From Bernardetia sp. ABR2-2B (GTDB taxonomy: Bacteria; Bacteroidota; Bacteroidia; Cytophagales; Bernardetiaceae), in contig NZ_CP147020.1 in assembly GCF_037126435.1 (NCBI RefSeq), forward strand, positions 620,001 to 684,000: a stretch of DNA of 64,000 nucleotides. The letters are read 5' to 3'. The notes beneath the pieces were generated by a model. The model was not told where the DNA came from. It saw only the letters and a program-made list of their open reading frames with translations, and made no database searches. How positions within the stretch are numbered: position 1 is the stretch's first letter; each line of letters begins with the position of its first letter. The position numbers were made by a program, and so were the translations under genes. Positions 6,763 through 36,326 of the stretch are shown in pieces.

Positions 6763-7224
6763 ATGCAGAATAATAAAATACCTCTCAATTTAAAACTACC
6801 CGTTTTCGCAGTAAAAATACTGGAGAAGTCGGGTTATTTGCCTTTGAAAAATGGAACAATAGAGCACAATGCTATTTATTCTATCCTTGTTTTAGGACGA
6901 CATGTTCCATTTACGAATAATGTAATTTTCAAACCTTCAACACTTGTAACCCAAAATGTTGAATTAGGAATTCACATTCCCTATCATTTTTCATTAGATT
7001 ATCATCCTGATAAATTGAAAAATATTCAAGCCTTTTTGATTCACACAGCTAAAGAGAAGATTGTTGAATTTTGTGATTTTCAAAAACAGCAGCTCTCCTT
7101 ATCTTTAGTAAAGTCTGTGCAAAACCTAGCAGGTTTTTATGATATTGATGAAGATACTTATTCTCAACAAAGCATAATTACAATGTATTACGAGCGCAAG
7201 AAGAAAAATAATAAAAACAAATAG
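6763..7224 (+). CDS. hypothetical prophage protein
   Basis: 153 residues, standing alone between the methyltransferase and the head operon. The sequence is mixed alpha/beta with a moderately hydrophobic N-terminal half and a Lys/Asn-rich tail. The first late-promoter element begins at its stop codon. No motif is recognised. Confidence 0.5.
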   Translation: MQNNKIPLNLKLPVFAVKILEKSGYLPLKNGTIEHNAIYSILVLGRHVPFTNNVIFKPSTLVTQNVELGIHIPYHFSLDYHPDKLKNIQAFLIHTAKEKIVEFCDFQKQQLSLSLVKSVQNLAGFYDIDEDTYSQQSIITMYYERKKKNNKNK

Positions 7225-7277
7225 GGTAAAAAAAGCTCGTACAACATTCTTTTAAAGTCCATTTTTGAAAATATTTG
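7223..7277 (+). promoter_or_regulatory. phage late promoter element, copy 1
   Basis: AGGGTAAAAAAAGC is followed by TCGTACAACATTCTTTTA and, 15 bases later, by AATATTTG (7270-7277), one mismatch from TAnnTTTG. The ATG of the head protease is 22 bases downstream. The same block with the same spacing to TTTG occurs at 17430 and 22066, each at the head of a late operon. Confidence 0.7.
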
Positions 7278-7298
7278 TAGCGTACTAATACTCTACAA

Positions 7299-8558
7299 AT
7301 GTCTTTAAGAAATACACTTGCTTCGATAAACTCCTCAAAATGGGCAATCACACAAGCACACGCAACTGATTATTTGCGTGTGCTTGACGCTGCATTAGAT
7401 TCTGATCAAACAGATGTTTCTCCAAAAGCAGCTATTGCAAGTTATGAAAATGCCGATGCCGAAAAAACTGAAATTGCCGAATACGATGATAAAATCGCAA
7501 TCGTAAGGATTGAGGGCGCAATTATGAAAAGTGGATGGTGCAACTATGGAACAGAAGATTACGCAAACTACATTGAAAATACTTTTGCTGATGATGAATC
7601 TATCAAGGGTATGCTACTCATTGTAGATTCAGGAGGAGGACAAGTTGCAGGAACGCAACGCCTTTACAAAGCTATTCAAAACGCTCAAAAACCAATCATA
7701 GGACTGGCTTCAAGTGTCGCTGCAAGTGCAGGGTATTGGATTGTTGCACCCACACAAAAAATATTCATTGAATCGGAAACGGACGAAGTAGGCAGTATAG
7801 GGGCGTTCGTTTCCTTCTCTGATTACTCCGAATACTTCAAAGAAGCAGGTATAAAAAGACATGAGATTTACGCTCGTAAATCAAGTAACAAAAACAAGGA
7901 AGTACGAGAAGCATTGAAGGATAATTATACTCCAATGCTTGATAATGTACTTGATCCCCTTGTAGATATTTTCATCAAAGACATCAAAACGGCACGTCCA
8001 AATATTTCTGAAGAAGTCTTTTCAGGAGGTATTTATATTGCCGAACGTGCAATTCAAGTAGGATTAGTCGACGACATTAAAAGCGAAAAAGAGGCAATGG
8101 AATATTTGCGCTCTCAAATAAATTCAAATAATTCTCAACCTCAACAAACTCAAATTTATATGAGCAAATTAACCATAGGTGCAAACATCATGAAAAAGTT
8201 AGGCTTTGGTGATGCGACTGAAAAAGAAACTTCATTAGAGGTCAATCAATCAGGTTTAACAAAGTTAGACGCTGCACTTCAAGAACTTCAAGAAGCTGAA
8301 GAGTCTAATCAAAAACTCACTTCCGAAAAAAGCGAACTTTCAAAAAAAGTCAAAGACTTGGAAGCTGAAAAACTGGTTTTAGAGCAGAAAGTAACAGAAC
8401 TCAAAGCCAAAAACGAAGAATATTCAAAAGTTGCAGCAGCAAGTCCAGCAGCTCCAGTTTCTGCTACTCAAAAAACTGAAACGGCTGATACAACGCCAAA
8501 AGATGATGATATTTTTGCTGAATTTAATGCAAAAGTTGAAGCTGACTTTGGAGCTTAA
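7299..8558 (+). CDS. phage head maturation protease (S49/SppA-like) with C-terminal scaffold
   Basis: 419 residues. Residues 64-270 are an S49 (SppA/lambda C-like) serine protease: strand and turn VDSGGGQVAGT at 110, nucleophile Ser143 in AASAGYW, and Lys194 in ARKSSN, a Ser-Lys dyad 51 residues apart. Residues 300-395 are a charged coiled coil with an acidic tail, like a scaffold. An in-frame ATG at 8160 (Met288) precedes this part and could start a separate scaffold protein, as in lambda C/Nu3. First gene of the head operon; the major capsid protein follows. Expected role: cleaving scaffold and capsid proteins in the procapsid. Confidence 0.88.
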   Translation: MSLRNTLASINSSKWAITQAHATDYLRVLDAALDSDQTDVSPKAAIASYENADAEKTEIAEYDDKIAIVRIEGAIMKSGWCNYGTEDYANYIENTFADDESIKGMLLIVDSGGGQVAGTQRLYKAIQNAQKPIIGLASSVAASAGYWIVAPTQKIFIESETDEVGSIGAFVSFSDYSEYFKEAGIKRHEIYARKSSNKNKEVREALKDNYTPMLDNVLDPLVDIFIKDIKTARPNISEEVFSGGIYIAERAIQVGLVDDIKSEKEAMEYLRSQINSNNSQPQQTQIYMSKLTIGANIMKKLGFGDATEKETSLEVNQSGLTKLDAALQELQEAEESNQKLTSEKSELSKKVKDLEAEKLVLEQKVTELKAKNEEYSKVAAASPAAPVSATQKTETADTTPKDDDIFAEFNAKVEADFGA

Positions 8559-8636
8559 AAGTCTTTAAAATCATCAAAAAACAGCCATTTAAAAAATTAC
8601 CAATTTACCGAATCACTTACTTATTTATAAAATAAA

Positions 8637-9602
8637 ATGAGTCAAATTACAATCACTCAAGTAGTTGCAATGTTTGGGGCATATTATGTTCAAAACACAG
8701 CAAATATGAAAAATCTGATACAACAGATTTATCAGGCAGAAAAAACAGCTTCGTTTTTTCGCATTATGCCCACAATGTCCACAGTTTACAGAAGAGCTAC
8801 ATCTGAATTAGGGGAAGTGCTTCAAAAGTATCAGGCAGACTTTACTCCAAAAGGTACTATTGAATTCAAGCCAGAACAATATGAATTACCTTGGCTTAAA
8901 GTCGATTTAGAATTTGTTCCTGATGAGCTTGTACAAAGTTGGTTAGGGTTTTTAGCAGGTAGTGGTTATGAGAAAGAAAAATATCCTTTTATTAAATGGT
9001 TTATGGAGGACCATTTAATTCCAAAAATGAAGGAAGATTTTGAAACAGCTATTTACATGGGTGTTGATGGGGCAGTAACTCCAGGTACAGCAACATCAGC
9101 TATTGCTATTATGGATGGAATTAGAAAGCAAATAAATGACTATGTAGCTGATGCTAACTCTGGTATAAACGTAATAGTTACAGGTGCACTTGATAATGAT
9201 GATAAGATTTTTGTTCGTCAAGTAGAAGATTTTTGTGATCAAGTAGCTGAAAAATTTGGAATGCCAATGGAGCTTTTTATGCGTCCTAGTCGCTTCAAAT
9301 CTTACCGAAGAGGTAGACGTAGTTTGTATAATGAAAATTATGCTCAAGTTCCTGACTCACAACTCTTAGATGTAGAAGATACCAATATCAAAGTTGTAAA
9401 TTCTCCTTCGATGGCAACTTCTGACAAAATCTATATGACTCCTGCAAAGAACAGAGCAAGACCTATTCGTTTGCCAAAAAACAAGCAACTCATTGACATA
9501 GATAGAGAAATACGTAAAGTTAGAATGTTCTCAGACTGGCACGAAGGAGCTTGTTTTGACACCCCAAAATTCATTTGGACAAACGATCAAGATACTTTAT
9601 AG
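8637..9602 (+). CDS. major capsid protein
   Basis: 321 residues, directly after the protease-scaffold gene, the standard position for an HK97-fold capsid protein. The sequence fits: a long N-terminal helix region, an E-loop-like segment (residues 50-90), a central helical stretch (VAEKFGMPMELFMRPSRFKS) and a C-terminal beta region with KIYMTPAKNRARPIR. It contains a short insertion with GTATSAIAIMDGIRKQ typical of Bacteroidota phage capsids. It would form the shell of the head. Assignment rests on position plus overall pattern, as capsid proteins diverge quickly. Confidence 0.82.
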   Translation: MSQITITQVVAMFGAYYVQNTANMKNLIQQIYQAEKTASFFRIMPTMSTVYRRATSELGEVLQKYQADFTPKGTIEFKPEQYELPWLKVDLEFVPDELVQSWLGFLAGSGYEKEKYPFIKWFMEDHLIPKMKEDFETAIYMGVDGAVTPGTATSAIAIMDGIRKQINDYVADANSGINVIVTGALDNDDKIFVRQVEDFCDQVAEKFGMPMELFMRPSRFKSYRRGRRSLYNENYAQVPDSQLLDVEDTNIKVVNSPSMATSDKIYMTPAKNRARPIRLPKNKQLIDIDREIRKVRMFSDWHEGACFDTPKFIWTNDQDTL

Positions 9603-9675
9603 GGTTTTGTTTAAGCTATTGAGCTGACAACCTTAAACAATTCAAAATATAACTTAAACAAACCTTGACAAACTC

Positions 9676-9999
9676 ATGACAAAAGAAGAAACCGAAAAAG
9701 CACTTGCAGAAGCTAATCAGCAACTCGCTGAAAAAGATGCGACAATCAAAGAAATGCAAACTCATATTGATAAGCAAGATAAAGCTCTTGAAAAACACGA
9801 AGTTGCAAAATCTGTAAAAAAGCCTGTTTACACGTCAAAAGACAAAAAGAATTATGAAATCGTAATTCCTACTATGACTGTAAACAGCAAGTCGTACACT
9901 TCAAAAGAACTTGCAGATAAAGCCGAAAACGCTGAACTCTGTGAAACACTTATTAAAGGAGGCTCAGGCGCATTCAAACTTATAGAAAAAACAAAATAG
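9676..9999 (+). CDS. small coiled-coil structural protein of head operon
   Basis: 107 residues between capsid and tail-tube genes. Residues 1-45 are a heptad-like coiled coil rich in Glu, Ala, Lys and Gln; residues 55-107 are a compact globular part (VYTSKDKKNYEIVIPTMTV). The layout would suit a head-associated or head-fibre-like protein, but no family is recognised. It is followed by a GGGTTCATACCCTA mini-hairpin at 9997-10010. Confidence 0.5.
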   Translation: MTKEETEKALAEANQQLAEKDATIKEMQTHIDKQDKALEKHEVAKSVKKPVYTSKDKKNYEIVIPTMTVNSKSYTSKELADKAENAELCETLIKGGSGAFKLIEKTK

Positions 10000-10063
10000 G
10001 GTTCATACCCTATTTCGTTTTTTCCTTTTTATCAAATTAAGAACATTCTAATTTTTATATAAA

Positions 10064-10600
10064 ATGGATTTAGAAAATATGACACCTGAAGTATTGGGTG
10101 ATGTAGAAGCAAAAGGTATAGAAACGACTATATACTATGCTTTGCGCTCTGATATAGAAACTATGCCTACTTATCCTGTTGTAACTAACCCCGAGGATAT
10201 TGTTACGGTAACTGGAGATATAATTTTTAAGACAGGAAAGTGTTTTAAAGAGATGAAACTTCGTGTAGATAAAAATGGTGTAAAAAGCTCATTGGTTGGA
10301 GAAATTCAAAGCAAGAGTTGGAATAATATGCTAGATGTGAGCATTCCAACAAATCACCCAAAATTGTTAGGAACAATTGACTATTTGAAAAATAGAGAAG
10401 TTGTTTATGTTTTCAAAGAACGTTGTACTAATTCGAATAGAATGATGGGTTCAGATTGTAATCCAGCAACTTTTGATACAGCAGAAATTGATTCTGGAAC
10501 AGATCAAGAATCTTTCAAAGGATTTAATGGAGGTATCAAGTCTTCTGGCAAATTACCTGCATTTTATTCTGGTGTGATTACTACAACTCCAGCAGCTTAA
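10064..10600 (+). CDS. putative major tail tube protein
   Basis: 178 residues. The pattern of an N-terminal segment (GIETTIYYALRSDIETMP), beta-rich core (GDIIFKTGKCFKEMKLRV, then SLVGEIQSKSWNNMLDVSIP) and C-terminal FKGFNGGIKSSGKLPAFYSG resembles tail tube proteins annotated in Bacteroidota prophages. No signal peptide or membrane segment. Its place in the head operon, far from the tape measure, is odd for a tube protein, so a head decoration protein is an alternative. Confidence 0.5.
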   Translation: MDLENMTPEVLGDVEAKGIETTIYYALRSDIETMPTYPVVTNPEDIVTVTGDIIFKTGKCFKEMKLRVDKNGVKSSLVGEIQSKSWNNMLDVSIPTNHPKLLGTIDYLKNREVVYVFKERCTNSNRMMGSDCNPATFDTAEIDSGTDQESFKGFNGGIKSSGKLPAFYSGVITTTPAA

Positions 10601-10629
10601 ATTATTCGTAAACCAATAAATTTATTCTT

Positions 10630-10941
10630 ATGTGTTGTGAAAAGCTAGAAAGAGAAAGCTCAGAGCGTAATCTAAATACTCATCAGTTACGAGAATGTGT
10701 TGCTAGTAAATTCAATCTTGTTGGTTTGCAATATGCAGGAGCAGTTATTTGGAGAAATAAAAAAATTCAGATTGACCAGATTTGTTGTAAGCAAGCTGAA
10801 TATTTAGTTAATGAAGGATTCCCTTTTTTAGAAAAAAAAGAAGTAGTAGAAAATGAAAATTCAACAACAGATACAGGAAGTTCTGCGACTGTGGAATTAT
10901 CAAAAAGCACTCGCAATTCTAAGAAAAACAAAGCCAAATAG
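10630..10941 (+). CDS. small Cys-containing prophage protein
   Basis: 103 residues. The first 75 residues are a compact domain with two Cys pairs (MCCEK and ICCKQ) and the last 25 are Ser/Thr/Lys-rich and probably disordered. The 3' end overlaps the next frame by 89 bases. The family is unknown; the position suggests a head or tail completion factor. Confidence 0.5.
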   Translation: MCCEKLERESSERNLNTHQLRECVASKFNLVGLQYAGAVIWRNKKIQIDQICCKQAEYLVNEGFPFLEKKEVVENENSTTDTGSSATVELSKSTRNSKKNKAK

Positions 10942-11473
10942 CTTTGTCTTGAAACAATGTGAGAAGTCTGAAAGTGATTTTCATAACGACATCTTGAAAA
11001 AAGAAATTGAGGCGTTGCAGGATATTCAAGATGAATCGCCTGAACGCCTTAATACTTTTGTTGCTAAAGCTCGTCCAAAGAAACTTCAAGAATTGGAAAC
11101 TGAATGGAAGGATAAATACAAGATTGCAAATTACAAATTTACCAATCTTGATTTTATGGATGAAGAACAGCGTAGAGTAGCCTGTCTTGATATTCTTGAT
11201 GAATTTGATATTATCAATGAATATCAGCAAATAACTGACACATGGGAAACAAACGGAATCTTAAAACCTAAAAAGTCAGAAATAGAAGCTAAAAAAACTC
11301 AATCAGATATAGAAAATCTGCCTGATGATTTAGCTGAACTTTATAGAATGCTGAATAATAATCGCTCAAATCGCTCAAAACATAAAGGGCGTGAGAAATA
11401 CGAACATTATAATGATTTGGTCATTGCCATAGAAGAAAAAATTAATGCTATTCAGTCCGAAGGAAACAAATAA
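10853..11473 (+). CDS. hypothetical helical prophage protein
   Basis: 206 residues if started at ATG 10853, which overlaps the previous gene by 89 bases; a TTG at 10949 would remove most of the overlap, so the start is uncertain. The protein is charged and mostly helical (EWKDKYKIANYKF, LPDDLAELYRMLNNNRSNRS). Its 3' end overlaps the PLD-like gene by 29 bases, in keeping with a tightly packed packaging operon. No family is recognised. Confidence 0.5.
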   Translation: MKIQQQIQEVLRLWNYQKALAILRKTKPNSFVLKQCEKSESDFHNDILKKEIEALQDIQDESPERLNTFVAKARPKKLQELETEWKDKYKIANYKFTNLDFMDEEQRRVACLDILDEFDIINEYQQITDTWETNGILKPKKSEIEAKKTQSDIENLPDDLAELYRMLNNNRSNRSKHKGREKYEHYNDLVIAIEEKINAIQSEGNK

Positions 11474-12017
11474 CGAGCTTTTAAAAAAAGAAGAAACTAC
11501 AAGTAGTTGTGCAGGGCAATCATTCAAAACGCCAAAAGTTCAAGCAAAGGAAATCAAAACTCGTAAAGATTTGAGAGCAACTATCAAAATCTTAGAGAAA
11601 GATTCTTTCTTAGAATTTTGGACGAATGGAGCTTGGAGCAATGCAGATTTAGTGGAATTTGTTTTGGAGCAGACAGGTAAAGCAAATCTCTATATCTGTA
11701 CTTGGTCAATTACAGAAGTTCCCGTCCGAAAGTTATTCCTTCTTAAAGAGAAAGGCTTGATAGGGAGCATAAAGGCATTGTTAGATTATCGTATCGAAAC
11801 AACAAGTCCGAAGGCAATCCCATTTTTCAAAACATTTGCTGATATACATCTTACCAAGGTACACGCAAAAATTACGCTTATAGAAGCCAAAAATACTTTT
11901 GTAACGATTAATAGCAGTGCAAATTTTACAAAAAACCCTCGCTTAGAGGCTGGCTATATTTCCACACATAAGTCAAGTTTTGACTTTTATAAAAAGATAT
12001 TTGATGAGTATAACTAA
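11445..12017 (+). CDS. PLD-like (HKD-type) protein in packaging operon
   Basis: 190 residues. Residues 45-185 look like one half of a phospholipase D-superfamily fold, ending in a VHAKITLI segment followed by NSSANFTKNPRLEAG, which matches the HxK...N core of the HKD motif. A single HKD copy suggests a homodimer, as in Nuc or BfiI-type nucleases. Residues 1-40 are a polar linker. Genes of this kind near terminase are seen in Bacteroidota prophages, and a DNA-processing role during packaging or exclusion is plausible, but the substrate is not known. The Asp of HKD is not obvious, so activity is uncertain. Confidence 0.65.
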   Translation: MLFSPKETNNELLKKEETTSSCAGQSFKTPKVQAKEIKTRKDLRATIKILEKDSFLEFWTNGAWSNADLVEFVLEQTGKANLYICTWSITEVPVRKLFLLKEKGLIGSIKALLDYRIETTSPKAIPFFKTFADIHLTKVHAKITLIEAKNTFVTINSSANFTKNPRLEAGYISTHKSSFDFYKKIFDEYN

Positions 12018-12294
12018 TCTCACAGCCGAATTAAAAAAAGATATAGAAGATTTTGCAGCCGTCTATTTTACGCACGAACAAATTTGTATTTCCTTAGAAT
12101 TAGACTTAGAAGAATTTGAGAATGATTATGAAAGTGAAGGCGAAATATATAGACTAGTACAAAAGGGGAAGCTGCAAAGACTGTACAAACAAAGAAAAAT
12201 GATATTTGAATTAGCTGAAAATGGCAGTACACCTGCTCAACAAATGGCTATGAAGATTATAGAGACTCAATCACTAAAGGAACTGAAACTATGA
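12004..12294 (+). CDS. putative terminase small subunit-like HTH protein
   Basis: 96 residues from ATG 12004; an upstream in-frame ATG at 11980 would lie inside the PLD-like gene. It overlaps that gene by 14 bases and the next by 4. Residues 12-60 (DIEDFAAVYFTHEQICISLE) form a helix-turn-helix like the DNA-binding part of small terminase subunits, followed by a helical oligomerisation-like tail. With the next gene it sits immediately before the large terminase, so one or both serve as the DNA-recognition subunit. Confidence 0.5.
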   Translation: MSITNLTAELKKDIEDFAAVYFTHEQICISLELDLEEFENDYESEGEIYRLVQKGKLQRLYKQRKMIFELAENGSTPAQQMAMKIIETQSLKELKL

Positions 12295-12890
12295 ATCCAG
12301 TAACATTAGATAATCTTGATGTAGAAATTATTATAAAAGCCTTACAATCTAATAACTCAAATTGGTTAGATAGTCTTACTGATAATCAAAAGAGGCTTTA
12401 TGAGCGATGTGAAGAAGCAAAGGATCTTATTCATAAATGGAAAAGTCGTAGTAAGGTTGTACCTATGCTTGTCAAGAAGTTTAAAATAACTACAACAGAT
12501 GCTTATGTACTTTATAATAACACTCAAATTATTTTTGGTGAACACGTAAAGAATAATAGCAAACCTTTTTTTGTAGATATTCTTTTAGAGCAGATTTTTG
12601 AAGTTTATAGGCTTGCTCAAGAAAAAAATGACTTAAAAGAAATGAATGCTGCAAACAAGCAGCTTCAAGTTGCTATCGAAAAATTCTTTCCTGAAACAGA
12701 TGCACTATTGCCAGAGGATATTAATGTTCCTGCAATTATGATGGGATTCCATCCAGAGATATTAGGAATGAATTTGCCTACTGAAGTAGAATTACAAAAG
12801 AAAGTTTCAAGAATACTTGATTTCAAGAAGAAAAAGCAAACTGAATATACAGATTTTGAAGAGATAGAAGCTCAAAACAGAGATGATTGA
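12291..12890 (+). CDS. probable terminase small subunit
   Basis: 199 residues, overlapping the upstream gene by four bases and the large terminase by eight, so expression is coupled. The sequence is helical, with an HTH-like region at residues 50-75 (SKVVPMLVKKFKITTTDAYV) and a Pro-containing C-terminal part with acidic tail. Position directly upstream of the terminase ATPase supports a role in recognising the phage genome end. The division of labour with the 12004 gene product is unknown. Confidence 0.55.
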   Translation: MNPVTLDNLDVEIIIKALQSNNSNWLDSLTDNQKRLYERCEEAKDLIHKWKSRSKVVPMLVKKFKITTTDAYVLYNNTQIIFGEHVKNNSKPFFVDILLEQIFEVYRLAQEKNDLKEMNAANKQLQVAIEKFFPETDALLPEDINVPAIMMGFHPEILGMNLPTEVELQKKVSRILDFKKKKQTEYTDFEEIEAQNRDD

Positions 12891-14508
12891 ACCACAAAAA
12901 CGACATTTCAATAAACCTCAACTACTTTCTCATTTGATTTTCGCTCAAATAATGATTCTTATTTGGGGAAGGGGAACAGGAAAAAGTACAGGCGTTATTG
13001 CGCCCTGGTCATTGAGAAATGTTATTGCAATGCCAAGGTCTAACGGTATTTTTGTTGGAAAGACTTATGAGCAGCTTCTTATTAGGACACTTCCTCCAGT
13101 CATTGCAGGATTAGAGAAATTAGGTATTTATGAAAATATACACTACTTCATAGGCAAGTTTGCGCCTAAATCGTGGAAATGGGATAAAGCATACACAAAA
13201 CCCATAAAAGCCGACCATTATATTCATTTTTGGAATGGTGCAGGAATTTACCTTGTTTCTCAAGATAGGGTAGGTTCTTCAAACTCGCTTTCAGTTGATT
13301 TTGTCGCAGGTGATGAAGCAAAACTTCTTAATAAAGAAAGATTAGATGAAGAGGTTTTACTTACTCTTCGTGGAAATGCCCAATACTTTGGTCATCTATC
13401 AAATCACTATTCTCAATTATTTACTACTGACCGTCCAAAGGGAGCTGCTGCAAAGTGGCTTTTAAATTCTGTAAATGAAATGGATGCTGAAGTGATAGAA
13501 ACTATTTTACAACTTTCAGCAATCGTTGAGCAGCAAAAAATAGAACAATATCATAAACCAAATAAGACAAGAGCGTACAGAATTAAGATGATGGAAGAGC
13601 AGCTCCACGCTCTCCGAAAAGGAACTACTCTTGTTAGTTTTGCATCTACCTTGGATAATATTCACGCACTAGGTTTTGATGCTATTTCAAATATGAAACG
13701 TAACCTTACTCCTACGGATTTTACGCTTTCTGTTTTGAATAAAGATACTCCGACTGTTGAGGTTGCTTTTTATCCTACGTTTGATATTGAACGATTAGGC
13801 TATAATAAACCTAATTACAGCTTTATTGAGAGCTTAGAATATGAAGAACTTAGAAATAAAGAGAGGGATTGTAGACACGATGGCGATTTGTGGAATGCGC
13901 CTTTGGATATTGCCTTTGATAATAATAATAAAATTAACTCTTTAGTTGTTGGTCAAGCGCACGGAAGGTACTATGACATAATAAATGCTATGTTTGTCCT
14001 AGGAGAGAATAAAGAGTTCCTAAAACACTTATGTAAAAAGTTTGATGCTTACTATAAATATCACAAAATTAAATGCAATAAAATACACTTCCATTATGAT
14101 CATACAGCAAAGAAAGGAGATGATAGAGGTAACAAGACATCAGCCGAATCTACAGTAGAAGAACTGCAAAAACTAGGTTGGGAAGTAGAAGAGCATGACG
14201 CAGGACACGCACCCGACCATACAGTACGTTATCCTTTCTTTATTACTGCCTTCAACAATGAAGATAGTAGATTGCCTATCTTTCGTTTCAATGAAGACAA
14301 CTGTAAACCTTTAACAACCTCAATAGAGGATGCAGGTAGTTACCTAACACTCAAAGGAGAGACAAAGAAAGACAAGAAGACTGAACAGAGTACACTCATA
14401 CCACCAGAAGAATCTACCCACTTCTCCGAAGCATTTGATATGCTTATCTATCCTCAGTTTGCTCATCTTATCCAAGAACAGGCGTGGAGAGATGTTCCAG
14501 TTCCTTAG
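12883..14508 (+). CDS. terminase large subunit
   Basis: 541 residues. N-terminal ATPase: Walker A GRGTGKST at residues 29-36 and Walker B VDFVAGDEA with Asp144-Glu145. The C-terminal half reads as the RNase H-like nuclease: acidic residue in DIAFDNNN, a central HYDHTA and a distal Asp in SEAFDMLIYP. It is the motor that cuts concatemers and drives DNA into procapsids. It is the last gene of the head-packaging operon and is followed by a strong terminator at 14538-14592. Confidence 0.93.
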   Translation: MIEPQKRHFNKPQLLSHLIFAQIMILIWGRGTGKSTGVIAPWSLRNVIAMPRSNGIFVGKTYEQLLIRTLPPVIAGLEKLGIYENIHYFIGKFAPKSWKWDKAYTKPIKADHYIHFWNGAGIYLVSQDRVGSSNSLSVDFVAGDEAKLLNKERLDEEVLLTLRGNAQYFGHLSNHYSQLFTTDRPKGAAAKWLLNSVNEMDAEVIETILQLSAIVEQQKIEQYHKPNKTRAYRIKMMEEQLHALRKGTTLVSFASTLDNIHALGFDAISNMKRNLTPTDFTLSVLNKDTPTVEVAFYPTFDIERLGYNKPNYSFIESLEYEELRNKERDCRHDGDLWNAPLDIAFDNNNKINSLVVGQAHGRYYDIINAMFVLGENKEFLKHLCKKFDAYYKYHKIKCNKIHFHYDHTAKKGDDRGNKTSAESTVEELQKLGWEVEEHDAGHAPDHTVRYPFFITAFNNEDSRLPIFRFNEDNCKPLTTSIEDAGSYLTLKGETKKDKKTEQSTLIPPEESTHFSEAFDMLIYPQFAHLIQEQAWRDVPVP

Positions 14509-15693: not shown

Positions 15694-15700
15694 AAATTAC

Positions 15701-15734: not shown

Positions 15735-15768
15735 AAATCAATTTTTTCAATCAAAAATAAATATCACA

Positions 15769-16416
15769 ATGTCAGTAATAAAATACACCAAAGAAGAAGT
15801 CTTCGAAGCATTAGAAGGAGCATTAAAAAACACACGCATCAAAAATGCACTTTTGCAACATGACGAAGAAATGAAAAGAGATATTTTTGTATATACAAAA
15901 AATAAAACATCTTTAGAGCTTGTAAATACTCTTATAGAGTACTGTTATTGGTATGCTTATATAAGTAATACAGTCGCATATAATTTGCAATATCAACAAA
16001 ATGAAGAAATATGTTTTGAAGATGTTACTCTTTCAGAGCGTGAAGGAGTTAGCGAAGTAGAGAAAATAAAGCAAGATGCAAGGCGAACAAGCTCAGTAAA
16101 TTACAATATGTACACAAATAACGGTAATAGCTTTTACCCAGAGCAATATTTGAAATATTGGCAAATAATAGTCGATACTTACAAACAAATTGAAAGCCTA
16201 AACGAAAAAGATTTTTTAGTATTTGAAGCTCCCCTAAATTATCCATGTGTTATGCACGAGGATAAAGCAAAAGAAAATATTAAAATAGAAAATTTGGGAG
16301 CTTTTCATCTTATTGAAAATGAGGAGGATTTTAATGAGAAACTAGCATATTATAAAAACCCTAAAATTTCGCATTATTATGAAATTGTGAGTTTTGCTAT
16401 AAAAGCAAATTCATAA
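15769..16416 (+). CDS. hypothetical prophage protein
   Basis: 215 residues starting at an ATG preceded by AAATATCACA, a leader also seen before 16499. The sequence is helical with many aromatic residues (EYCYWYAYISNTVAYNLQYQ) but no clear membrane segment. It stands between two hairpins and is probably an independently controlled accessory gene. I do not recognise it. Confidence 0.5.
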   Translation: MSVIKYTKEEVFEALEGALKNTRIKNALLQHDEEMKRDIFVYTKNKTSLELVNTLIEYCYWYAYISNTVAYNLQYQQNEEICFEDVTLSEREGVSEVEKIKQDARRTSSVNYNMYTNNGNSFYPEQYLKYWQIIVDTYKQIESLNEKDFLVFEAPLNYPCVMHEDKAKENIKIENLGAFHLIENEEDFNEKLAYYKNPKISHYYEIVSFAIKANS

Positions 16417-16427
16417 TACCACAAAAA

Positions 16428-16459
16428 AACCCTTGTCAGACGGCAATCTTTCAAGGGTT
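16428..16459 (+). terminator. hairpin with CGGCAA loop
   Basis: AACCCTTG and CAAGGGTT pair, then a 2-base mismatch and AGA/TCT close the loop CGGCAA. No long T-run follows, so termination may be weak. It separates 15769 from 16499. Confidence 0.55.
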
Positions 16460-16498
16460 ATATATTCAATTTGATTTTTCAAGCAAACTAAATATCAC

Positions 16499-16945
16499 AT
16501 GACAAATATACAGGAAATTACGGAACTTGCAAATATACATGCAGCCGAATACGGCACGAGCAGAAAAGAAAAATATATTTACCTCTCAAATCTTAGTAGA
16601 AGTCTATTAGAAGCGATTGAGGATGATAATTTGACAGCCGAGTTTTACGAAGATTGCGAAAATACAAACGCAATTCTTAAAAAATACTACCAAAATCAAT
16701 ACAGAGTAAAAGAATTTAACACTTTCAAAGGGTGGCAAAAAGAAGGCTTTAAGGTCAGAAAAGGCGCAAAAGCGTTTCTTTTATGGTCAAAACCAAAAGG
16801 AAAAAAAGTTGATGAAGAGAAAAAAGTAGAAATAAATAAAAATGTTTTTGTAGAAGGTGCAATTTCAGAAGAAACCGAAGAAAAGAAAAAATATTATATC
16901 GCTTATTTATTTTCTAACCTACAAGTCGAAAAAATAGAATTATGA
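16499..16945 (+). CDS. ArdC N-terminal-like ssDNA-binding protein
   Basis: 148 residues. Residues 70-148 contain FNTFKGWQKEGFKVRKGAKA followed by a strand pair ending in YYIAYLFSNLQVEKI; this is the pattern of the ArdC N-terminal (ssDNA-binding) domain, seen in anti-restriction and plasmid/phage proteins. The metallopeptidase domain of full ArdC is absent, so this is a stand-alone N-domain. It overlaps the next gene by four bases. A role in protecting entering DNA is plausible; activity is not shown. Confidence 0.6.
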   Translation: MTNIQEITELANIHAAEYGTSRKEKYIYLSNLSRSLLEAIEDDNLTAEFYEDCENTNAILKKYYQNQYRVKEFNTFKGWQKEGFKVRKGAKAFLLWSKPKGKKVDEEKKVEINKNVFVEGAISEETEEKKKYYIAYLFSNLQVEKIEL

Positions 16946-17142
16946 AAAAACAAATTTTAGTAACTTTTGAGTTTGATATAAAAAAACCTTCTCAATCTTT
17001 AAGCGAAATTTTAGAAGATTTTGCACTAACTCAAATAGTAGAACAAAAACTAAATAATATTTTCAAAGGCTCATTTATTTATTACTCTGACACAGGAGAA
17101 GAACAAGAAATAAAAGGCACATGGGAAATAAAGTATATTTAA
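16942..17142 (+). CDS. small prophage protein coupled to ArdC-like gene
   Basis: 66 residues, start overlapping the upstream stop (ATGA). It reads as a small beta-alpha-beta domain (ILVTFEFDI, then a helix, then GSFIYYSDTGEEQEIKG). Closed by the terminator at 17172. No family recognised; likely a partner of the ArdC-like protein by coupling. Confidence 0.5.
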   Translation: MKKQILVTFEFDIKKPSQSLSEILEDFALTQIVEQKLNNIFKGSFIYYSDTGEEQEIKGTWEIKYI

Positions 17143-17171
17143 TCTAAAATCTATTTTTTTTATAAAACTTT

Positions 17172-17208
17172 TCTACTTCCAAAATTCATTTTTTGGAGGT
17201 AGATTTTT
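17172..17208 (+). terminator. intrinsic terminator
   Basis: TCTACTTCCAAAA and TTTTGGAGGTAGA form a 13-bp stem with one U-G pair and a 6-nt loop, followed by TTTTTG. Confidence 0.8.
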
Positions 17209-17256
17209 GTGCTTTATAGTTTACTATTTTTCGGTAAGTGCGCTATGAGCATACCC

Positions 17257-17310
17257 AAATTACAACCCCCTTCAAAAAGAAAGTAGCCTTTTTAAAGGGG
17301 GTTGTAATTT
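17257..17310. repeat. 16-bp perfect inverted repeat, strong hairpin
   Basis: AAATTACAACCCCCTT (17257-17272) is the exact reverse complement of 17295-17310, and the interior can pair further (AAAAAG/CTTTTT). There is no protein explanation; it could be an insulator terminator, a structured RNA or a transposon end-like relic. Confidence 0.75.
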
Positions 17311-17326
17311 GGCTGCTTGAAAAAAC

Positions 17327-17365
17327 GGATAACAGAAAGCTTGAGGCTTTCCGTTATCCATTTTT
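17327..17365 (+). terminator. terminator-like hairpin
   Basis: GGATAACAGAAAGC and GCTTTCCGTTATCC pair over 14 positions with one mismatch around TTGAG, followed by ATTTTT. It precedes late promoter copy 2 by about 65 bases. Confidence 0.6.
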
Positions 17366-17429
17366 CGGCTTAGAGCAGTTTTCATTCAACCATTATCGAT
17401 TTTGTTTTAGGAAAAATAATAGTTTATTA

Positions 17430-17483
17430 AGGCTAAAAATATTCGTACAACATTCTTTCATTCCTATTTTCTTAGCTTTTTTG
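17430..17483 (+). promoter_or_regulatory. phage late promoter element, copy 2
   Basis: AAGGCTAAAAATAT, TCGTACAACATTCTTTCA and then 15 bases before CTTTTTTG. The TTTG at 17480-17483 lies at exactly the same distance as in the copies at 7223 and 22066. The ATG of the PAS-like gene is 24 bases downstream. Confidence 0.65.
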
Positions 17484-17507
17484 TATTTAAAACTAAACGC
17501 TCAAGAA

Positions 17508-17897
17508 ATGCCTAAAGATGATGATTTAGAACTAAACAATTTATTTATTCAACTAGCTTATTTAGAGATAATAAGTTATCATTTGCCCATTCCAATGTGT
17601 ATGGTCGATGAAAACATGAACTATCTTGTTTTTTCTAAAAAATGGGAAACTCTATTAGAACATTCTGATAAACCAAAACAAGGTGATAATCATTACGACC
17701 TATTTCCTACTATAAAAAAAGACTATCCGCAATTTGTTGTGGAACATCAAGAATGCTTGAAAAAGGGGAAAGTCATTTCGCAGATTGTAGATGATTTTCA
17801 AGGTATAAAAATTTGGTACACTTTACAGCCTGTAAAATTACCAAACGAAAGAAACGGAATGATTATGATTATTAATGATTTTGAAACAAATTTATAA
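17508..17897 (+). CDS. PAS-fold protein
   Basis: 129 residues from ATG 17508. The frame is open further upstream to a GTG at 17238, but that part spans two hairpins and the late promoter, so it is untranslated. Residues 25-128 read as a PAS domain: PIPMCMVDENMNYLVFSKKW, then GDNHYDLFP, HQECLKKGKV and a final strand pair IWYTLQPVKLP...GMIMIIND. There is no kinase, HTH or membrane segment, so it is a PAS-only sensor or scaffold. Being the first gene of a late phage operon that includes the portal is odd. Role unknown. Confidence 0.65.
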   Translation: MPKDDDLELNNLFIQLAYLEIISYHLPIPMCMVDENMNYLVFSKKWETLLEHSDKPKQGDNHYDLFPTIKKDYPQFVVEHQECLKKGKVISQIVDDFQGIKIWYTLQPVKLPNERNGMIMIINDFETNL

Positions 17898-17900
17898 TTT

Positions 17901-18287
17901 ATGGAAAATAAAGAAAATCTTAGTAATCAACTTTTAAAGGTATTCTCAGAAGTGAAGGAAAATTTAGGAAAACTCTCTGAAAAGTTTGAAGCATTCGATA
18001 AAAAGTATGATGAAAACAACAAAGATATTCCAAGAATGAAGGAGGACCTTACTGTAATCTCACATACGCTTTGGGGAACAAAACCTGACAAACAAGGAGG
18101 ATTAAATCATACTATAAGTGATTTGGAAAAAAAACTAGAAAAATCAGAAGAAGTAAACAAAACTAAATTTGAAGGTTTTGAAAGAATTGTAAATCAAGGA
18201 CGTGGAATGCTTACGCTTGTTTCATTTTTCGCACTAGCACTTAGTATAGCTTCTGGAATAATGACGATAATTATTTTTTTTAGGTAA
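17901..18287 (+). CDS. coiled-coil protein with C-terminal membrane anchor
   Basis: 128 residues, three bases after the PAS gene. Residues 1-95 are charged coiled coil; residues 102-127 are a single hydrophobic segment (MLTLVSFFALALSIASGIMT), so the protein is tail-anchored with its coil in the cytoplasm. The shape resembles XhlA-type lysis accessory proteins, but no lysis gene is adjacent. A holin-like or membrane-docking role is possible. Confidence 0.55.
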   Translation: MENKENLSNQLLKVFSEVKENLGKLSEKFEAFDKKYDENNKDIPRMKEDLTVISHTLWGTKPDKQGGLNHTISDLEKKLEKSEEVNKTKFEGFERIVNQGRGMLTLVSFFALALSIASGIMTIIIFFR

Positions 18288-18631
18288 TGATTTCAACCCA
18301 AACCATATTTTTACGAGAAGCTCTAAAGCAAATGAATGCTAGAGATGAGGATAATAACCTCATTCCTTTTTCTCTAAGATTGTACACAGCAGACAGGAAA
18401 AATAAAACGGGAGGACAATTACTCTATTTTGAAAATTGTGTAATCTCAAAACTTGCAAGACTAACAGAACTTCAAAAAAAATATAGAAGACTTGCCTTAA
18501 AAGACAAAACCATAAAAGCGAATCACTGGGAAAACTCTACTAGAAATATTTTACTCCTTAATAGTGGCGAAATCAGAACCGTACATATTCGTCTTATCAC
18601 TCATTTCAATAGCCAAAAAATTATATGGTAG
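18287..18631 (+). CDS. hypothetical protein upstream of portal
   Basis: 114 residues, start overlapping the previous stop by one base and end overlapping the portal gene by seven. Basic, mixed alpha/beta (FSLRLYTADRKNKTGGQLLY, then a helix, then IRTVHIRLITHFN). The tight packing says it belongs to the portal operon. Family unknown. Confidence 0.5.
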   Translation: MISTQTIFLREALKQMNARDEDNNLIPFSLRLYTADRKNKTGGQLLYFENCVISKLARLTELQKKYRRLALKDKTIKANHWENSTRNILLLNSGEIRTVHIRLITHFNSQKIIW

Positions 18632-20010
18632 AGCAAAACACAAATAAGAATACAGAAGTCATCCACGCAGGAACTACACCAAATGGAGAAGCGTATGTTT
18701 TGCCAAAATTAGGTTTGCTCACTCATGTATCAACTTCAAGCGTAAGTCAAAAAAAACCTCTTCCTGCAAATCCAAAAGATTTAGACGCAGAAAGTCAAAG
18801 TTCAGATGTATTTTATTGGGGAGATGATAATAACTTTCCTGCTCAATTGATTGCAAGAATTAGAAAAAGTCCTGTAATTCCTTCTACATTAGACTGGAAA
18901 GTGAGAGCTTTGTATGCGCTTGGTTTGGAATATGGATATTATCAAATCGAAAACAATGAGAAAGTTTTTAAACTTATTTTGGATGAAGAAATTGAGGAAT
19001 TTCTATATAATACCAAGATAAATGAGTATTTAGCTAAAGCATTAAAAGATTTTTACACCTTCTACAATGTATTTCCAGAGCTTGTTCTATCTGTAAATAG
19101 AGAAAAAATAAGCCTTTTGGTTGCTCAAGAAGCCTCTTTTTGTAGATGGTCTAAACAAGAAAAAGATGGACGTTTCAAAGATTGTTATATTCGTTCAAAC
19201 TGGGATAATGATTCTAAAGAAAAAGCAATCAAAATTCCTGTTTTAGATTCTTATTTTGATAACGTAGAAACATTGAAAGCTAAAAAAGGACATAATTTTA
19301 TTTATCCCTTATCCTATCCTTCAACAGCTACAATAGGCTATCAAGAACCTGAATGGCATTCTATCATTCGCTCAAATTGGCTAGACTTAGCTGAAGCAAT
19401 ACCTCTTTTCAAAAAGACATTGCTTAAAAATCAAATCACAGTAAAATATGTAGTTCATGTTCCTTCCTATTTTTGGTCTTGGAAATATCCTGATTGGGCA
19501 AAATATGATTTAGATAAGAAAAAAGAACTACAAAAGAAAGTATTTGATGAGTTTCAAACATTTATGTCTGGAGAAGAAAATGCAGGTAAAGTATTTTTCT
19601 CTCTTTTTGCATTTAATGAAAAAGGAGGAGGAACAGAGTATCCAGGATGGAGATTCGAACCTTTAGACGACAAAATAAAAGATGGTATCTATCTGGAAGA
19701 TTCTCAAGAAGCAAATAGTAATATGCTCTATGCTCTTGGAGTGCCATCGGCTTTGATAGGAAATAGTCCGAACGATTCAGGACACGGAGGAGGTAGTGGT
19801 TCAGATGTGCGAGAACACATGAACTTATACTGGTTGCTAAATACGCTGCACGAAAATATCCTTTTGCAGCCCCTAGAATTTGTAGCAAAATACAACGGTT
19901 GGAACAAAAGGTTAGGAAAGCGCATTAAATTCCGTTTCAAAAAAACAACTATGCAAACACTCAATCAAGTTGCGCCAAAAGACAGAGAAACTAACCCACA
20001 ACCTAACTAA
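18625..20010 (+). CDS. phage portal protein
   Basis: 461 residues. Hallmarks of portal proteins of Bacteroidota prophages are visible: an N-terminal arm ending in VFYWGDDNNFPAQLIARI, a helical/beta middle, and the C-terminal helix region ANSNMLYALGVPSALIG followed by a Gly/Ser-rich loop (SGHGGGSGSD) and HMNLYWLLNTLHENILLQPL. It would form the dodecameric ring at the head vertex through which DNA passes. It lies about 4 kb downstream of the terminase rather than beside it, which is unusual. Confidence 0.78.
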   Translation: MVEQNTNKNTEVIHAGTTPNGEAYVLPKLGLLTHVSTSSVSQKKPLPANPKDLDAESQSSDVFYWGDDNNFPAQLIARIRKSPVIPSTLDWKVRALYALGLEYGYYQIENNEKVFKLILDEEIEEFLYNTKINEYLAKALKDFYTFYNVFPELVLSVNREKISLLVAQEASFCRWSKQEKDGRFKDCYIRSNWDNDSKEKAIKIPVLDSYFDNVETLKAKKGHNFIYPLSYPSTATIGYQEPEWHSIIRSNWLDLAEAIPLFKKTLLKNQITVKYVVHVPSYFWSWKYPDWAKYDLDKKKELQKKVFDEFQTFMSGEENAGKVFFSLFAFNEKGGGTEYPGWRFEPLDDKIKDGIYLEDSQEANSNMLYALGVPSALIGNSPNDSGHGGGSGSDVREHMNLYWLLNTLHENILLQPLEFVAKYNGWNKRLGKRIKFRFKKTTMQTLNQVAPKDRETNPQPN

Positions 20011-20013
20011 ACT

Positions 20014-21000
20014 ATGAAATTACTTATAAAAGAAACTGTAGAAGTAAAGGAATACGTAGAAAATGTAGCACTTACAAAATCTATTAAAAATATTCGTCCT
20101 TCTTTAAAAACGGCAACTACAAAGTATTTATTTAGGTATATTCCTAGAGATTTTTATAAAGATTTTTCTAAAAAGTATGATGACGGAGATTTGAATGAGT
20201 TTGAAGAAGAACTATTACCTTATCTACAAGAAACTATAGTATTATATGCTTTTGCTATTTCAACAGCAAAAAGGCAAGTTATAGAAACGGATTCTGGAAT
20301 TCATATTATCAGCACAGCAAATCAAAAAACAGCTTTTGAACATCAAATAAAAGCATTAAAAGACACTTATTTAGAAGATGCAAACTATGCACTGGAAGAA
20401 CTTTTAGAGTTTCTCACAGAAAACGCTGATAAAACAGAACTTCTCAAATGGAGAAAGTCTGATTATTTCACAGAAACAAATGAATGTTTTATCAAAAACT
20501 CAAAGGAGTGCAACAAAATTGCATCATCATTAAATATTGAAGCTCGTCATTTTATAGAAATGAAATCTGATTTGATGAAGGTGCAAGAAAAGCAAATCAA
20601 AGCTACTTTGACTCCTTCTTTGTATGAAGAGCTGCTCAAACAATACAAAGGAAGTAATGTAAATGAGCGCAACAAAAAGCTTTTACAGCCCATCAAAGAA
20701 GCGATTTTGTATCTAGGCTATGTAAAATATACCGACTTACAACAGCTAAAAAATACTACAGATGGAACGACAATTCCTAAAAAAACTACTAATTCTTTAT
20801 CTTCAAGAGAACAGGCAACTGGAGAAGTTCTAAGTGCTTTTTCTTTCAGACTGTACGAAGAAGGAAACGCAGCTCTAGGAGAACTAAAAACTTTCTTAGA
20901 TGATAATTATAGAGATTATCCCCTTTACGAAAACTCTAAAAATTTTGGACAACCTAAAGTAATCCAAAATGATAAAAATAATTCTTATTATGTACCCTAA
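20014..21000 (+). CDS. putative head-tail connector-like protein (DUF6712-like)
   Basis: 328 residues, three bases after the portal gene. It begins with MKLLIKETVEVKEYV and continues with helices that contain conserved-looking RPSLKTATTKYLFRYI and FAISTAKRQVIETDSGIHI, a pattern I associate with DUF6712 proteins that follow the portal in Bacteroidota phages. The C-terminal third is a second helical unit ending in DDNYRDYPLYENSKNF. Likely a connector or head-completion protein; family assignment is from memory and not certain. Confidence 0.5.
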   Translation: MKLLIKETVEVKEYVENVALTKSIKNIRPSLKTATTKYLFRYIPRDFYKDFSKKYDDGDLNEFEEELLPYLQETIVLYAFAISTAKRQVIETDSGIHIISTANQKTAFEHQIKALKDTYLEDANYALEELLEFLTENADKTELLKWRKSDYFTETNECFIKNSKECNKIASSLNIEARHFIEMKSDLMKVQEKQIKATLTPSLYEELLKQYKGSNVNERNKKLLQPIKEAILYLGYVKYTDLQQLKNTTDGTTIPKKTTNSLSSREQATGEVLSAFSFRLYEEGNAALGELKTFLDDNYRDYPLYENSKNFGQPKVIQNDKNNSYYVP

Positions 21001-21011
21001 ATTTTAATTTT

Positions 21012-21227
21012 ATGGCAACTATCACAGAAGTAAAAGTTACTGTCAAAGCGCATCAAGATGACATCTTTGCAGAAGCTACAGTTAATAAAAGTAATGAAAC
21101 TATCACGGTCAAAGACAATGATGGACTGGATTTTAGAATAGAAGATTATCCAAAAAATAAATTAGATGATTTGATTGCTGTTCTTACGGCAATTTCAACA
21201 TCAGCAACAACCGAATTTGCTGCATAA
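21012..21227 (+). CDS. small phage structural-like protein
   Basis: 71 residues, last gene of the portal operon, followed by a bidirectional terminator. Mostly beta (EVKVTVKAHQDDIFAEATV) with a short C-terminal helix. Function unknown; the position suggests a minor head or connector component. Confidence 0.45.
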   Translation: MATITEVKVTVKAHQDDIFAEATVNKSNETITVKDNDGLDFRIEDYPKNKLDDLIAVLTAISTSATTEFAA

Positions 21228-21254
21228 CGGAAATAAATAAACTTACTTACAAAC

Positions 21255-21292
21255 AAAAAAGCCTTTCAAAATCTAATTTGAAAGGCTTTTTT
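21255..21292. terminator. bidirectional terminator
   Basis: AAAAAAGCCTTTCAAA (21255-21270) and TTTGAAAGGCTTTTTT (21277-21292) are perfect complements around ATCTAA. It serves both the portal operon on the plus strand and the minus-strand gene ending at 21300. Confidence 0.85.
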
Positions 21293-21299
21293 ATTTGGT

Positions 21300-21704
21300 C
21301 TAATCTTCTAAAAACTCAAGCATTGTTCTAACTCTAAGTATTTCAGGATTATCACTACTCAAACCTGTTTCTTCTATCAGCGTTTCTATCCTATCTGCAT
21401 CTACCGATTCATTTTCAATTAATATATAAATTCTTTCAAGTTTTTTTTGAATGTCAAACTGAAAGTTAGGAGGTTTTCCTTCCAAGTACCTTACCATTTG
21501 CTCTACGCAAGATGATAATTCCTTTGGCTCTCTTGTTTCACTCATTGCATTAATAAATTCTACTAATACAAGTTGTTCGGCAGGTGTAAAATTCATAGTT
21601 TCATTGATTTGAATATTCAATGCTTCTTTCATTTCTAAATTATGAGCATTGTCTTTAGTCTGCACTTTTTTTGCAGATTCGTTTTTCTTACTTTTGTCTT
21701 GCAT
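21300..21704 (-). CDS. hypothetical minus-strand prophage protein
   Basis: 134 residues, the only minus-strand gene inside the late region. N-terminal 25 residues are basic and polar; the rest is acidic and helical (MNFTPAEQLVLVEFINAMSE; KLERIYILIENESVDADRIE). It is divergent from the HTH gene at 21854 across a promoter region with the 16-base palindrome, an arrangement typical of control genes. No DNA-binding motif is clear. It could be expressed in the lysogen. Confidence 0.55.
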   Translation of the reverse strand: MQDKSKKNESAKKVQTKDNAHNLEMKEALNIQINETMNFTPAEQLVLVEFINAMSETREPKELSSCVEQMVRYLEGKPPNFQFDIQKKLERIYILIENESVDADRIETLIEETGLSSDNPEILRVRTMLEFLED

Positions 21705-21817
21705 AAATTCGGTTTATGTAAGCACAACATTTATTCTACCGTTCGAAAAGTTGATAAATTGTTGTGCTTCTGTTTTCAAAATAATTGAAATCAAAACTAC
21801 AAATTTTTATTCAATTA

Positions 21818-21833
21818 GCCTAATATATTAGGC
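21818..21833. promoter_or_regulatory. palindromic operator, copy 2
   Basis: GCCTAATATATTAGGC, identical to 14932-14947. It covers the expected -33 region of the promoter whose -7 box is at 21842-21849, so a bound dimer would block transcription of the HTH gene at 21854. It could also control the divergent gene ending at 21704. Confidence 0.7.
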
Positions 21834-21841
21834 GTTTTTTG

Positions 21842-21849
21842 TATATTTG
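21842..21849 (+). promoter_or_regulatory. -7 box of the HTH gene
   Basis: TATATTTG is a perfect match to TAnnTTTG, five bases before the ATG at 21854, so the transcript would have almost no leader or the start codon may be the second ATG. It lies eight bases after the palindrome. Confidence 0.55.
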
Positions 21850-21853
21850 TTTT

Positions 21854-22063
21854 ATGAATGCACAAAGCGAAAAACCAGAGATTTTAAAGTTTATAGAAGA
21901 ACGTCGACCTTTTTTAAATATACAAGGCATTGAAGAAGGTGCAAAACTTCCTGATAAGACATTACAAAAATACTTGTACGGTATTCGTGCGTTTCCAAAA
22001 AAGCACATCGAAACATTAGAAAACTTTTGTAAGCAATGGTTAGGCTACATAAAAGAGAAATAA
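21854..22063 (+). CDS. small HTH protein, possible phage repressor or control protein
   Basis: 69 residues from ATG 21854; a TTG at 21839 lies inside the promoter and is rejected. Residues 10-62 fit a small helix-turn-helix: FIEERRPFLNIQGIEEGA, then LPDKTLQKYLYGIRAF as turn and recognition helix, then a closing helix. It resembles minimal XRE-type phage HTH proteins. The palindrome in its own promoter suggests autoregulation, and the second palindrome upstream of 15052 would make a two-promoter regulon. Which protein binds the palindrome is not shown. Confidence 0.6.
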   Translation: MNAQSEKPEILKFIEERRPFLNIQGIEEGAKLPDKTLQKYLYGIRAFPKKHIETLENFCKQWLGYIKEK

Positions 22064-22065
22064 AC

Positions 22066-22120
22066 AGGGTAAAAAAGCCTCGTACAACATTCTTTTACTC
22101 CCTCGTTTCAAATAAATTTG
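22066..22120 (+). promoter_or_regulatory. phage late promoter element, copy 3
   Basis: AGGGTAAAAAAGCC, TCGTACAACATTCTTTTA, then 15 bases and TAAATTTG (22113-22120), a perfect TAnnTTTG. It begins two bases after the HTH gene stop and drives the lysis and tail operon. Alignment with copies at 7223 and 17430 is gap-free over the core. Confidence 0.75.
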
Positions 22121-36315: not shown

Positions 36316-36326
36316 AATTAATAATC

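Follow-up and report, generated by a model that had tools for sequence, protein, structure and literature searches.

The 64,000-nt stretch of the Bernardetia sp. ABR2-2B genome analyzed here (contig NZ_CP147020.1, positions 620,001–684,000; referred to below as the window and numbered from its first nucleotide) contains a prophage in which three sites, designated P1, P2 and P3, share an identical 16-nt box located at a fixed distance from a predicted −7 element. A promoter role of these sites is very likely. It is probable, in our judgement, that all three are activator-dependent late promoters of a temperate tailed phage, used by the host sigma factor together with a phage activator, most likely the product of gene 6763–7224. 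The initial annotation of this DNA had suggested that either a phage activator or an alternative sigma factor might read the box; the first option is the best supported, given the anatomy of the related loci, the spacing to start codons and the host-type −7 element. We infer the transcription starts, the binding of DNA, the activation itself and the lytic timing.

Three identical boxes in the prophage

A box recurring three times had been noted in the initial annotation, and the exact 16-mer TCGTACAACATTCTTT is indeed present in three copies, all on the + strand of the prophage (Table 1). A motif search of the whole 5.38-Mb genome revealed no exact copy outside the prophage. When up to two mismatches were allowed, 10 matches were obtained (the three exact copies and seven with two mismatches), compared with 5 for the reversed control pattern; one of the seven lies within the prophage, on the − strand (10415–10430). 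The fixed distance to a box ending in TTTG was also confirmed, TTTG starting exactly 21 nt past each 16-mer (at 7274, 17480 and 22117). The gap between the 16-mer and this 8-base box is 17 nt, or 15 nt when counted from the originally annotated block, which extends 2 bases beyond the 16-mer. With a TTTG frequency of 0.0113 per position of the window, three TTTG at one common offset (out of approximately 60 offsets) would be expected about 1e-4 times by our own arithmetic. P1 and P3 are identical in 36 of 40 bases. P2 shares the 16-mer with them, but GGCTAAAAA, one base closer, replaces GGGTAAAAAA, and its likeness to the other sites is shorter.

Promoter positions were numbered according to the −7 convention of Flavobacterium johnsoniae, with G at −5 (PMC6847099, available in part), which places the 16-mer at −45 to −30. 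When compared with the housekeeping −7 element of Bacteroidota, only P3 carries a full TAnnTTTG; P1 keeps TTTG without T−12, and P2 keeps TTTG without T−12 and A−11. According to the available text of the same source, transcription in F. johnsoniae starts 4–5 nt beyond the −7 element.

The absence of a normal −33 box, to which the initial annotation had attached importance, is real: at the three sites the invariant 16-mer contains no TTG, and no −33 TTTG element is present. Its weight as an argument did not hold up, however, since the −33 motif is "much less evident" in F. johnsoniae (PMC6847099, in the part available), and the missing box is weak evidence for this reason. The shared upstream A-rich block fared similarly. 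Related blocks are found at all three sites (Table 1), but TAAAAANNNNTCGTA alone is not above chance (6 copies found versus 5.7 expected, one mismatch allowed), and in the genome it gave 14 matches compared with 25 for the reversed control. The A-rich block was rejected as an independent signal. A further 15-base repeat, CTAAAAATATTCGTA, located before the activator gene (6695–6709), recurs as the upstream part of P2 (17433–17447). It may represent an autoregulatory half site, or it may be due to chance, because further 15-mers repeat too.

P1 is located between gene 6763–7224 and the protease gene, P2 between genes inserted downstream of the terminase gene and the pre-portal genes, and P3 ahead of the lysis/tail block. 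The boxes had been described as preceding head, portal and lysis–tail operons; this was confirmed for the head and portal operons, and for lysis by an Amidase_2 match (22525–23145).

A predicted GTCCT-type promoter class in related prophages and phages

Of 390 genomes belonging to the host's order, 57 were matched in a search with the capsid protein, the Bernardetia genome among them. Forty units other than the window were collected, 20 picked by the capsid match and 20 because capsid and candidate regulator (a member of the 6763–7224 protein family, see below) lie close together. In a repeat search of the mostly non-coding parts of the relatives, TGTCCTTTT emerged at the start of many operons, with TTTG downstream of it. 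In the 40 units, the distance from YGTCCT to TTTG was 32 for 80 of the 322 forward cores; the other distances had a mean count of 1.8 and a highest count of 10, and no distance rose above 9 among the 547 reverse cores.

The gene following each of 69 sites obtained with a stricter pattern was that of the protease (19 sites), g10853 (15), the candidate regulator (7), g23117 (6), the pre-portal protein (4) or another or unassigned gene (18). The positions of P1, P2 and P3 are three of those seen for sites in the relatives. At the sites before the regulator gene, five of seven −7 elements conform to TAnnTTTG, three of them reading TAGGTTTG. A set of 76 sites, comprising those of the units, of the isolated phages Leef_1 and Mea-Yong924-1 and of loci L010 and L041, includes 42 CAnnTTTG, 16 TAnnTTTG, 14 CAnnTTCG and 4 TAnnTTCG elements (56 beginning with CA and 20 with TA), the pattern itself having required YAnnTTYG. 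The relative prophage of Hymenobacter sp. BT18 (L010; Cytophagales, Bacteroidota) has four sites within 21 kb. This relative and the Bacteroidota type of the −7 elements agree with a Bacteroidota host for the window prophage.

At 22 of the 76 sites, an open frame of at least 60 codons begins with an ATG exactly 4 nt downstream of the −7 element, compared with 21 of 1109 box-less −7 matches, for which no frame length was demanded. Since this ATG falls where the F. johnsoniae rule sets +1, the late mRNAs from these sites are predicted to lack a leader. Repeated elements of phages commonly act in antitermination, processing, packaging or recombination, and many of the relatives' sites come after a hairpin. 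That the box is an RNA or DNA element of such a kind is nevertheless extremely improbable, because the site lies upstream of the predicted start, abuts the start codon in the 22 cases mentioned, and has a host-type −7 element downstream of it.

Across the 390 genomes, the pattern YGTCCTTTY-N19-CAnnTTTG gave 120 matches in 66 genomes. Its reversed control gave 40 (counted by eye), with at most two per genome; an off-by-one control (CA shifted by one base, T for the initial Y) gave 17 matches in 15 genomes, but is one bit stricter, and about half the matches would be expected on that ground. Genomes carrying the regulator family (60) contain 78 of the 120 matches, and the other 330 contain 42. 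Among the 13 genomes with at least three matches, 12 carry the family; in one of these (G375), the matches are scattered. The 42 matches found without a regulator match might indicate that a regulator of the host reads the box, or that the phages borrowed a host promoter type. We consider this very improbable, since these matches amount to 0.13 per genome, versus 1.3 in the regulator-carrying genomes, and are near the level of the reversed control, and the host genome of the window contains no further exact copy of its box. In the remaining one of the 13 genomes (G215:C20:91604–112063), three one-strand matches lie within 21 kb although the genome has no match to the capsid or activator profile; this cluster perhaps represents a more distant phage using the same switch.

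Both isolated phages contain sites of this type. In Leef_1 (Polaribacter; Flavobacteriales), TGTCCTTTT occurs six times, always on the late strand and always in intergenic DNA, three times right after a hairpin; the spacing to the −7-like element, judged by eye, is 31 or 32 in some sites, and at several sites the −7 element is a poor one. In Mea-Yong924-1 there are five TGTCCTT sites, one of which precedes the protease gene, with TTTG (four sites) or CTTG (one) at 32, and the phage encodes a member of the activator family (8977–9450). The word "promoter" is absent from the available portions of the papers reporting the isolation of the two phages. Mea-Yong924-1 (L137) is described as a Microcystis cyanophage, but its −7 elements are of Bacteroidota type, and its capsid and portal proteins are similar to those of the window prophage. 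Because of these features and the activator-family member, the phage may in fact infect a Bacteroidota bacterium present in the culture.

Judged by pattern and position, the related prophages and the two isolated phages have a predicted class of late promoters in common, in which a YGTCCT box keeps one spacing to a −7 element of host type.

A candidate late activator

In the first 21 units, the family of the 6763–7224 product is the most shared one among the proteins encoded upstream of the protease (15 units, compared with 8 for the next same-strand family). A wider profile, built without the window protein, recovered the latter with an E value of 7.8e-7 and then 1.2e-6, the next open reading frame (ORF) of the window scoring 5.1 and 3.3. 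With this profile a family member was detected in 39 of the 40 units, including 19 of the 20 picked by capsid alone; the exception is truncated by a contig end. In the order, a regulator gene is found within 25 kb of the capsid gene and on the same strand at 57 of 73 places, always upstream, and at 45 of 61 places when the 12 profile seeds are omitted. R144 is nearly invariant in the family alignment (A1). One genome (G283) contains nine copies of the family on nine contigs (C6, C8, C9, C10, C22, C27, C28, C31 and C66).

Pfam, PHROGs and NCBIfam hold the Mu C/Mor, RinA/ArpU and sigma-70 families. No match of the window protein to these or any other families was obtained in Pfam or PHROGs (E≤0.1) or in NCBIfam (E≤0.01), and its relatives gave only weak unrelated matches in Pfam and PHROGs, none of them to a sigma-factor family. 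The candidate activator family, which has no significant match in Pfam or PHROGs, appears to be an undescribed one. The structural model of the window protein (mean predicted local distance difference test score, pLDDT, 67.6) is good mainly in the C-terminal helices, with block means above 90 for residues 101–150; the model of a relative (L079) is confident (mean pLDDT 92.6). Among predicted viral structures there was one match at E≤0.001, the Leef_1 protein A0A8E5EBJ1 (E 5.4e-7; template modelling score 0.68/0.80), which corresponds by length and profile match to Leef1_39, encoded two genes before the protease/capsid gene. The transposon protein 2rn7, aligned over 52 columns at 2.0 Å, was rejected as a structural match (E 7.8).

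These results point to the product of 6763–7224 as the likely late activator. The promoters might instead depend on a different phage activator, such as the helix-turn-helix (HTH) protein encoded at 3806–4150, with the 6763–7224 family involved in the early-to-late switch in some other way. The 3806–4150 protein has weak HTH matches, and DNA binding by the 6763–7224 product is only predicted, but the predominance of the latter family upstream of the protease and its presence in the capsid-selected units make this alternative unlikely. A phage-encoded alternative sigma factor, reading the box and the −7 element together, would account for their fixed spacing, and the C-terminal helical domain of the family has no clear structural match. 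This proposal of the initial annotation is disfavoured and appears improbable: the −7 element resembles the host consensus, which favours the host sigma factor plus an activator, and no sigma-factor family was matched by the window protein in Pfam, PHROGs or NCBIfam or by its relatives in Pfam and PHROGs.

Divergence of the window box and weighing of the evidence

Several observations weigh against an activator-dependent promoter class that includes the window sites. The box of the window lacks the GTCCT core: in register it reads CAACATTCT, with 5 of 9 matches to YGTCCTTTY, and it was found in none of the relatives. Viral loci with the window-type pattern gave one match each among at least 120 listed, and look like chance. 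The −7 element of P2 is poor. Half of the units (20 of 40) were selected for having a regulator, the sites in related phages are not independent, and many of the 22 ATG sites are orthologous. In 12 whole genomes the loosest pattern gave 106 matches compared with 73 for the reversed control, and lone matches to it therefore mean little; near the capsid gene, however, such matches cluster on one strand (4 of 5 in G251, 6 of 7 in G290 and 6 of 6 in G257). A first, narrower profile recovered the window protein with an E value of 0.18 only, and 16 of the 73 capsid places have no regulator at the threshold, although some of them have members under the wider profile. In a phylum-wide draw, 5 of 395 genomes matched the regulator profile: that of the window and G121, both of which are represented in the profile alignment, as well as G021 and two genomes from other orders. 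The family is thus sparse in this draw. Finally, Foldseek revealed nothing in the PDB at E≤0.001, and for this reason DNA binding is put forward as a prediction.

The motif search thus had a divided outcome: exact copies are present in the prophage, and the relatives carry the related GTCCT class in place of the same box. Within the window the box-to-TTTG distance is constant, and the operon starts are the same as in the relatives. The window box would work like the GTCCT-type class but is not a plain member of it, and since it is not GTCCT, the kinship of the boxes is argued from their position, the genes that follow and the protein family in common. Among viral contigs, a hallmark gene of the phage group was present at 21 of 120 listed loci with the GTCC pattern and at 1 of 120 with the window-type pattern (15 versus 1 among the first 80 listed of each). 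A nucleotide search of the first 8 kb against phage records gave no match, a capsid search at the family level matched the own genome only (1 of 11), and scanning of viral contigs with the capsid and the window activator found no relative.

Boxes also differ between the relatives. In the partial output obtained, G384 has TGTCCTGTTTT four times, three times preceded by GGTCGCCTGA, and G375 has GATTGATTGTTGTCCTGT three times. The 10 bases upstream of the core agree at 5.9 of 10 positions within a phage and at 4.0 of 10 between phages, both values being inflated by terminator T-runs. TCGTACAACATTCTTT would fit a phage-private box from which the GTCCT core has disappeared as well. GTCCTT is mostly associated with activators whose last helix resembles KK/RK-x-[YV][QY]R, GTCCTG with RYYxR (G375 and G384), and GTCTTT with QHYYR in two of three units. 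This apparent co-variation of box and helix is suggestive, with exceptions, and is confounded by descent.

In the mechanism that we propose, the 6763–7224 product would probably be made as the last early gene and would bind the −45 to −30 box, while the housekeeping sigma factor (sigma-A) with the host RNA polymerase would hold the −7 element. The activator would recruit or remodel the polymerase across the exactly fixed distance to −7, and this rigid spacing is proposed to reflect direct contact between the two. A single activator would in this way activate the operons for head, portal and lysis/tail in concert, with transcription restarting at P2 behind the inserted genes. A more far-reaching version, which we regard as possible but doubtful, is that single phage proteins of a widespread family occupy the place where region 4 of the unusual Bacteroidota sigma factor should bind, and so assume its −33 contact. 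This would be a one-protein sigma appropriation outside T4-type phages, with a box that diverges phage by phage together with the last helix as a private late switch, and with many late mRNAs starting exactly at AUG.

Genes around the promoters

The late genes are arranged in the order head protease, capsid, terminase, portal, amidase and further late genes (Table 1). In G077, the closest relative fetched by terminase (44%) and portal (45%), the gap between the terminase and pre-portal genes is only about 0.4 kb, which indicates that the window holds extra genes at this place. A hairpin-like sequence, recognized by eye, immediately precedes P2.

Table 1. Coordinates of the predicted promoter elements and selected genes of the prophage.
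Feature	Position	Strand	Remarks
Candidate late activator, 153 amino acids (aa)	6763–7224	+	Predicted C-terminal helices 82–111, 115–125, 135–152
A-rich block GGGTAAAAAAA	7224–7234	+	Upstream of P1, UP-like position
P1 activator box TCGTACAACATTCTTT	7237–7252	+	Predicted −45 to −30; precedes head-protease/capsid operon
P1 −7 element AATATTTG	7270–7277	+	Predicted +1 at ~7282; ATG 7299
S49-type head maturation protease	7299–8558	+	First gene of the P1 operon
Major capsid protein	8637–9602	+	Similarity to annotated capsid of Mea-Yong924-1, and position
Terminase large subunit	12883–14508	+	
A-rich block related to GGGTAAAAAAA	17431–17439	+	Upstream of P2
P2 activator box, same 16-mer	17443–17458	+	Precedes pre-portal/portal operon
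P2 −7 element CTTTTTTG	17476–17483	+	Poor match; predicted +1 at ~17488; ATG 17508
P2 operon	17508–20010	+	129-, 128- and 114-aa genes, then portal (18625–20010)
A-rich block related to GGGTAAAAAAA	22067–22076	+	Upstream of P3
P3 activator box, same 16-mer	22080–22095	+	Precedes lysis/tail operon
P3 −7 element TAAATTTG	22113–22120	+	Full TAnnTTTG; predicted +1 at ~22125; ATG 22169
P3 operon	22169–23863	+	145-aa gene, Amidase_2 open frame (22525–23145), gene 23117–23863
Gene 23117–23863	23117–23863	+	Conserved in relatives; named tail by position

The Amidase_2 frame (+ strand; E 1.7e-10) lacks an ATG, GTG or TTG start that would give a listed ORF of at least 55 aa; an unusual start or a frameshift from the gene ending at 22606 is possible. 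Two palindromes, GTTGTGATTATCACAAC and GCCTAATATATTAGGC, are present twice each (positions 3580/15674 and 14932/21818) and are possible operators. Between the late genes and the integrase gene, a three-gene cassette on the − strand (34237–37698) encodes an SMC-like ATPase (692 aa); it has only weak NCBIfam matches and, as a guess, may be a defence cassette. The search for prophage attachment sites found no convincing direct repeat.

Significance and comparison with known systems

Among the best-ranked titles of targeted literature searches, none concerned a late promoter or late activator of a Bacteroidota phage. The present analysis proposes a testable late switch for which the gene is named, the site is defined and the starts are predicted. 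It occurs in prophages of many genera and in the isolated phage Leef_1, and its design seems to be common to related viruses that infect further members of the phylum. If the proposed reading is true, late operons could be found by pattern across a major phylum, switchable promoters could become available for organisms whose sigma factor is unusual, and leaderless late mRNAs are predicted in a phylum without Shine-Dalgarno signals.

In phages of Gram-positive bacteria, RinA/ArpU is encoded by a small gene at the early/late border and switches on packaging and head genes. The candidate activator resembles it in being the product of a small gene at this border, but belongs to a phage of another phylum and has no family match.

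The second comparison is with Mu, a phage of E. coli. Its C protein serves several late promoters (lys, I, P, mom) with non-consensus −10 and −35 elements (PMC4461284, available in part), and a single activator of several late promoters is predicted here as well. The Mu site, as described in the available part of that paper, is located upstream of −35, whereas the box of the window covers −45 to −30; the 6763–7224 protein, in addition, matches no Pfam or PHROGs family.

In T4, the MotA box at −35 to −26 replaces the −35 element and the −10 element is kept (PMC2988021, available in part). The box described here is closer in position to that of MotA than to that of Mu C, and the downstream element is likewise retained. 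T4 requires a second protein, AsiA, and its promoters are middle rather than late; no sequence or fold match was seen for the candidate activator. With no such link found to either system, the window promoters are not assigned to the Mu C or T4 type.

The predicted −7 elements resemble those of sigma-ABfr promoters (TTTG/TAnnTTTG; PMC6847099, available in part), with a full match at P3. The window promoters differ from these in having a phage-specific box where the −33 element would lie.

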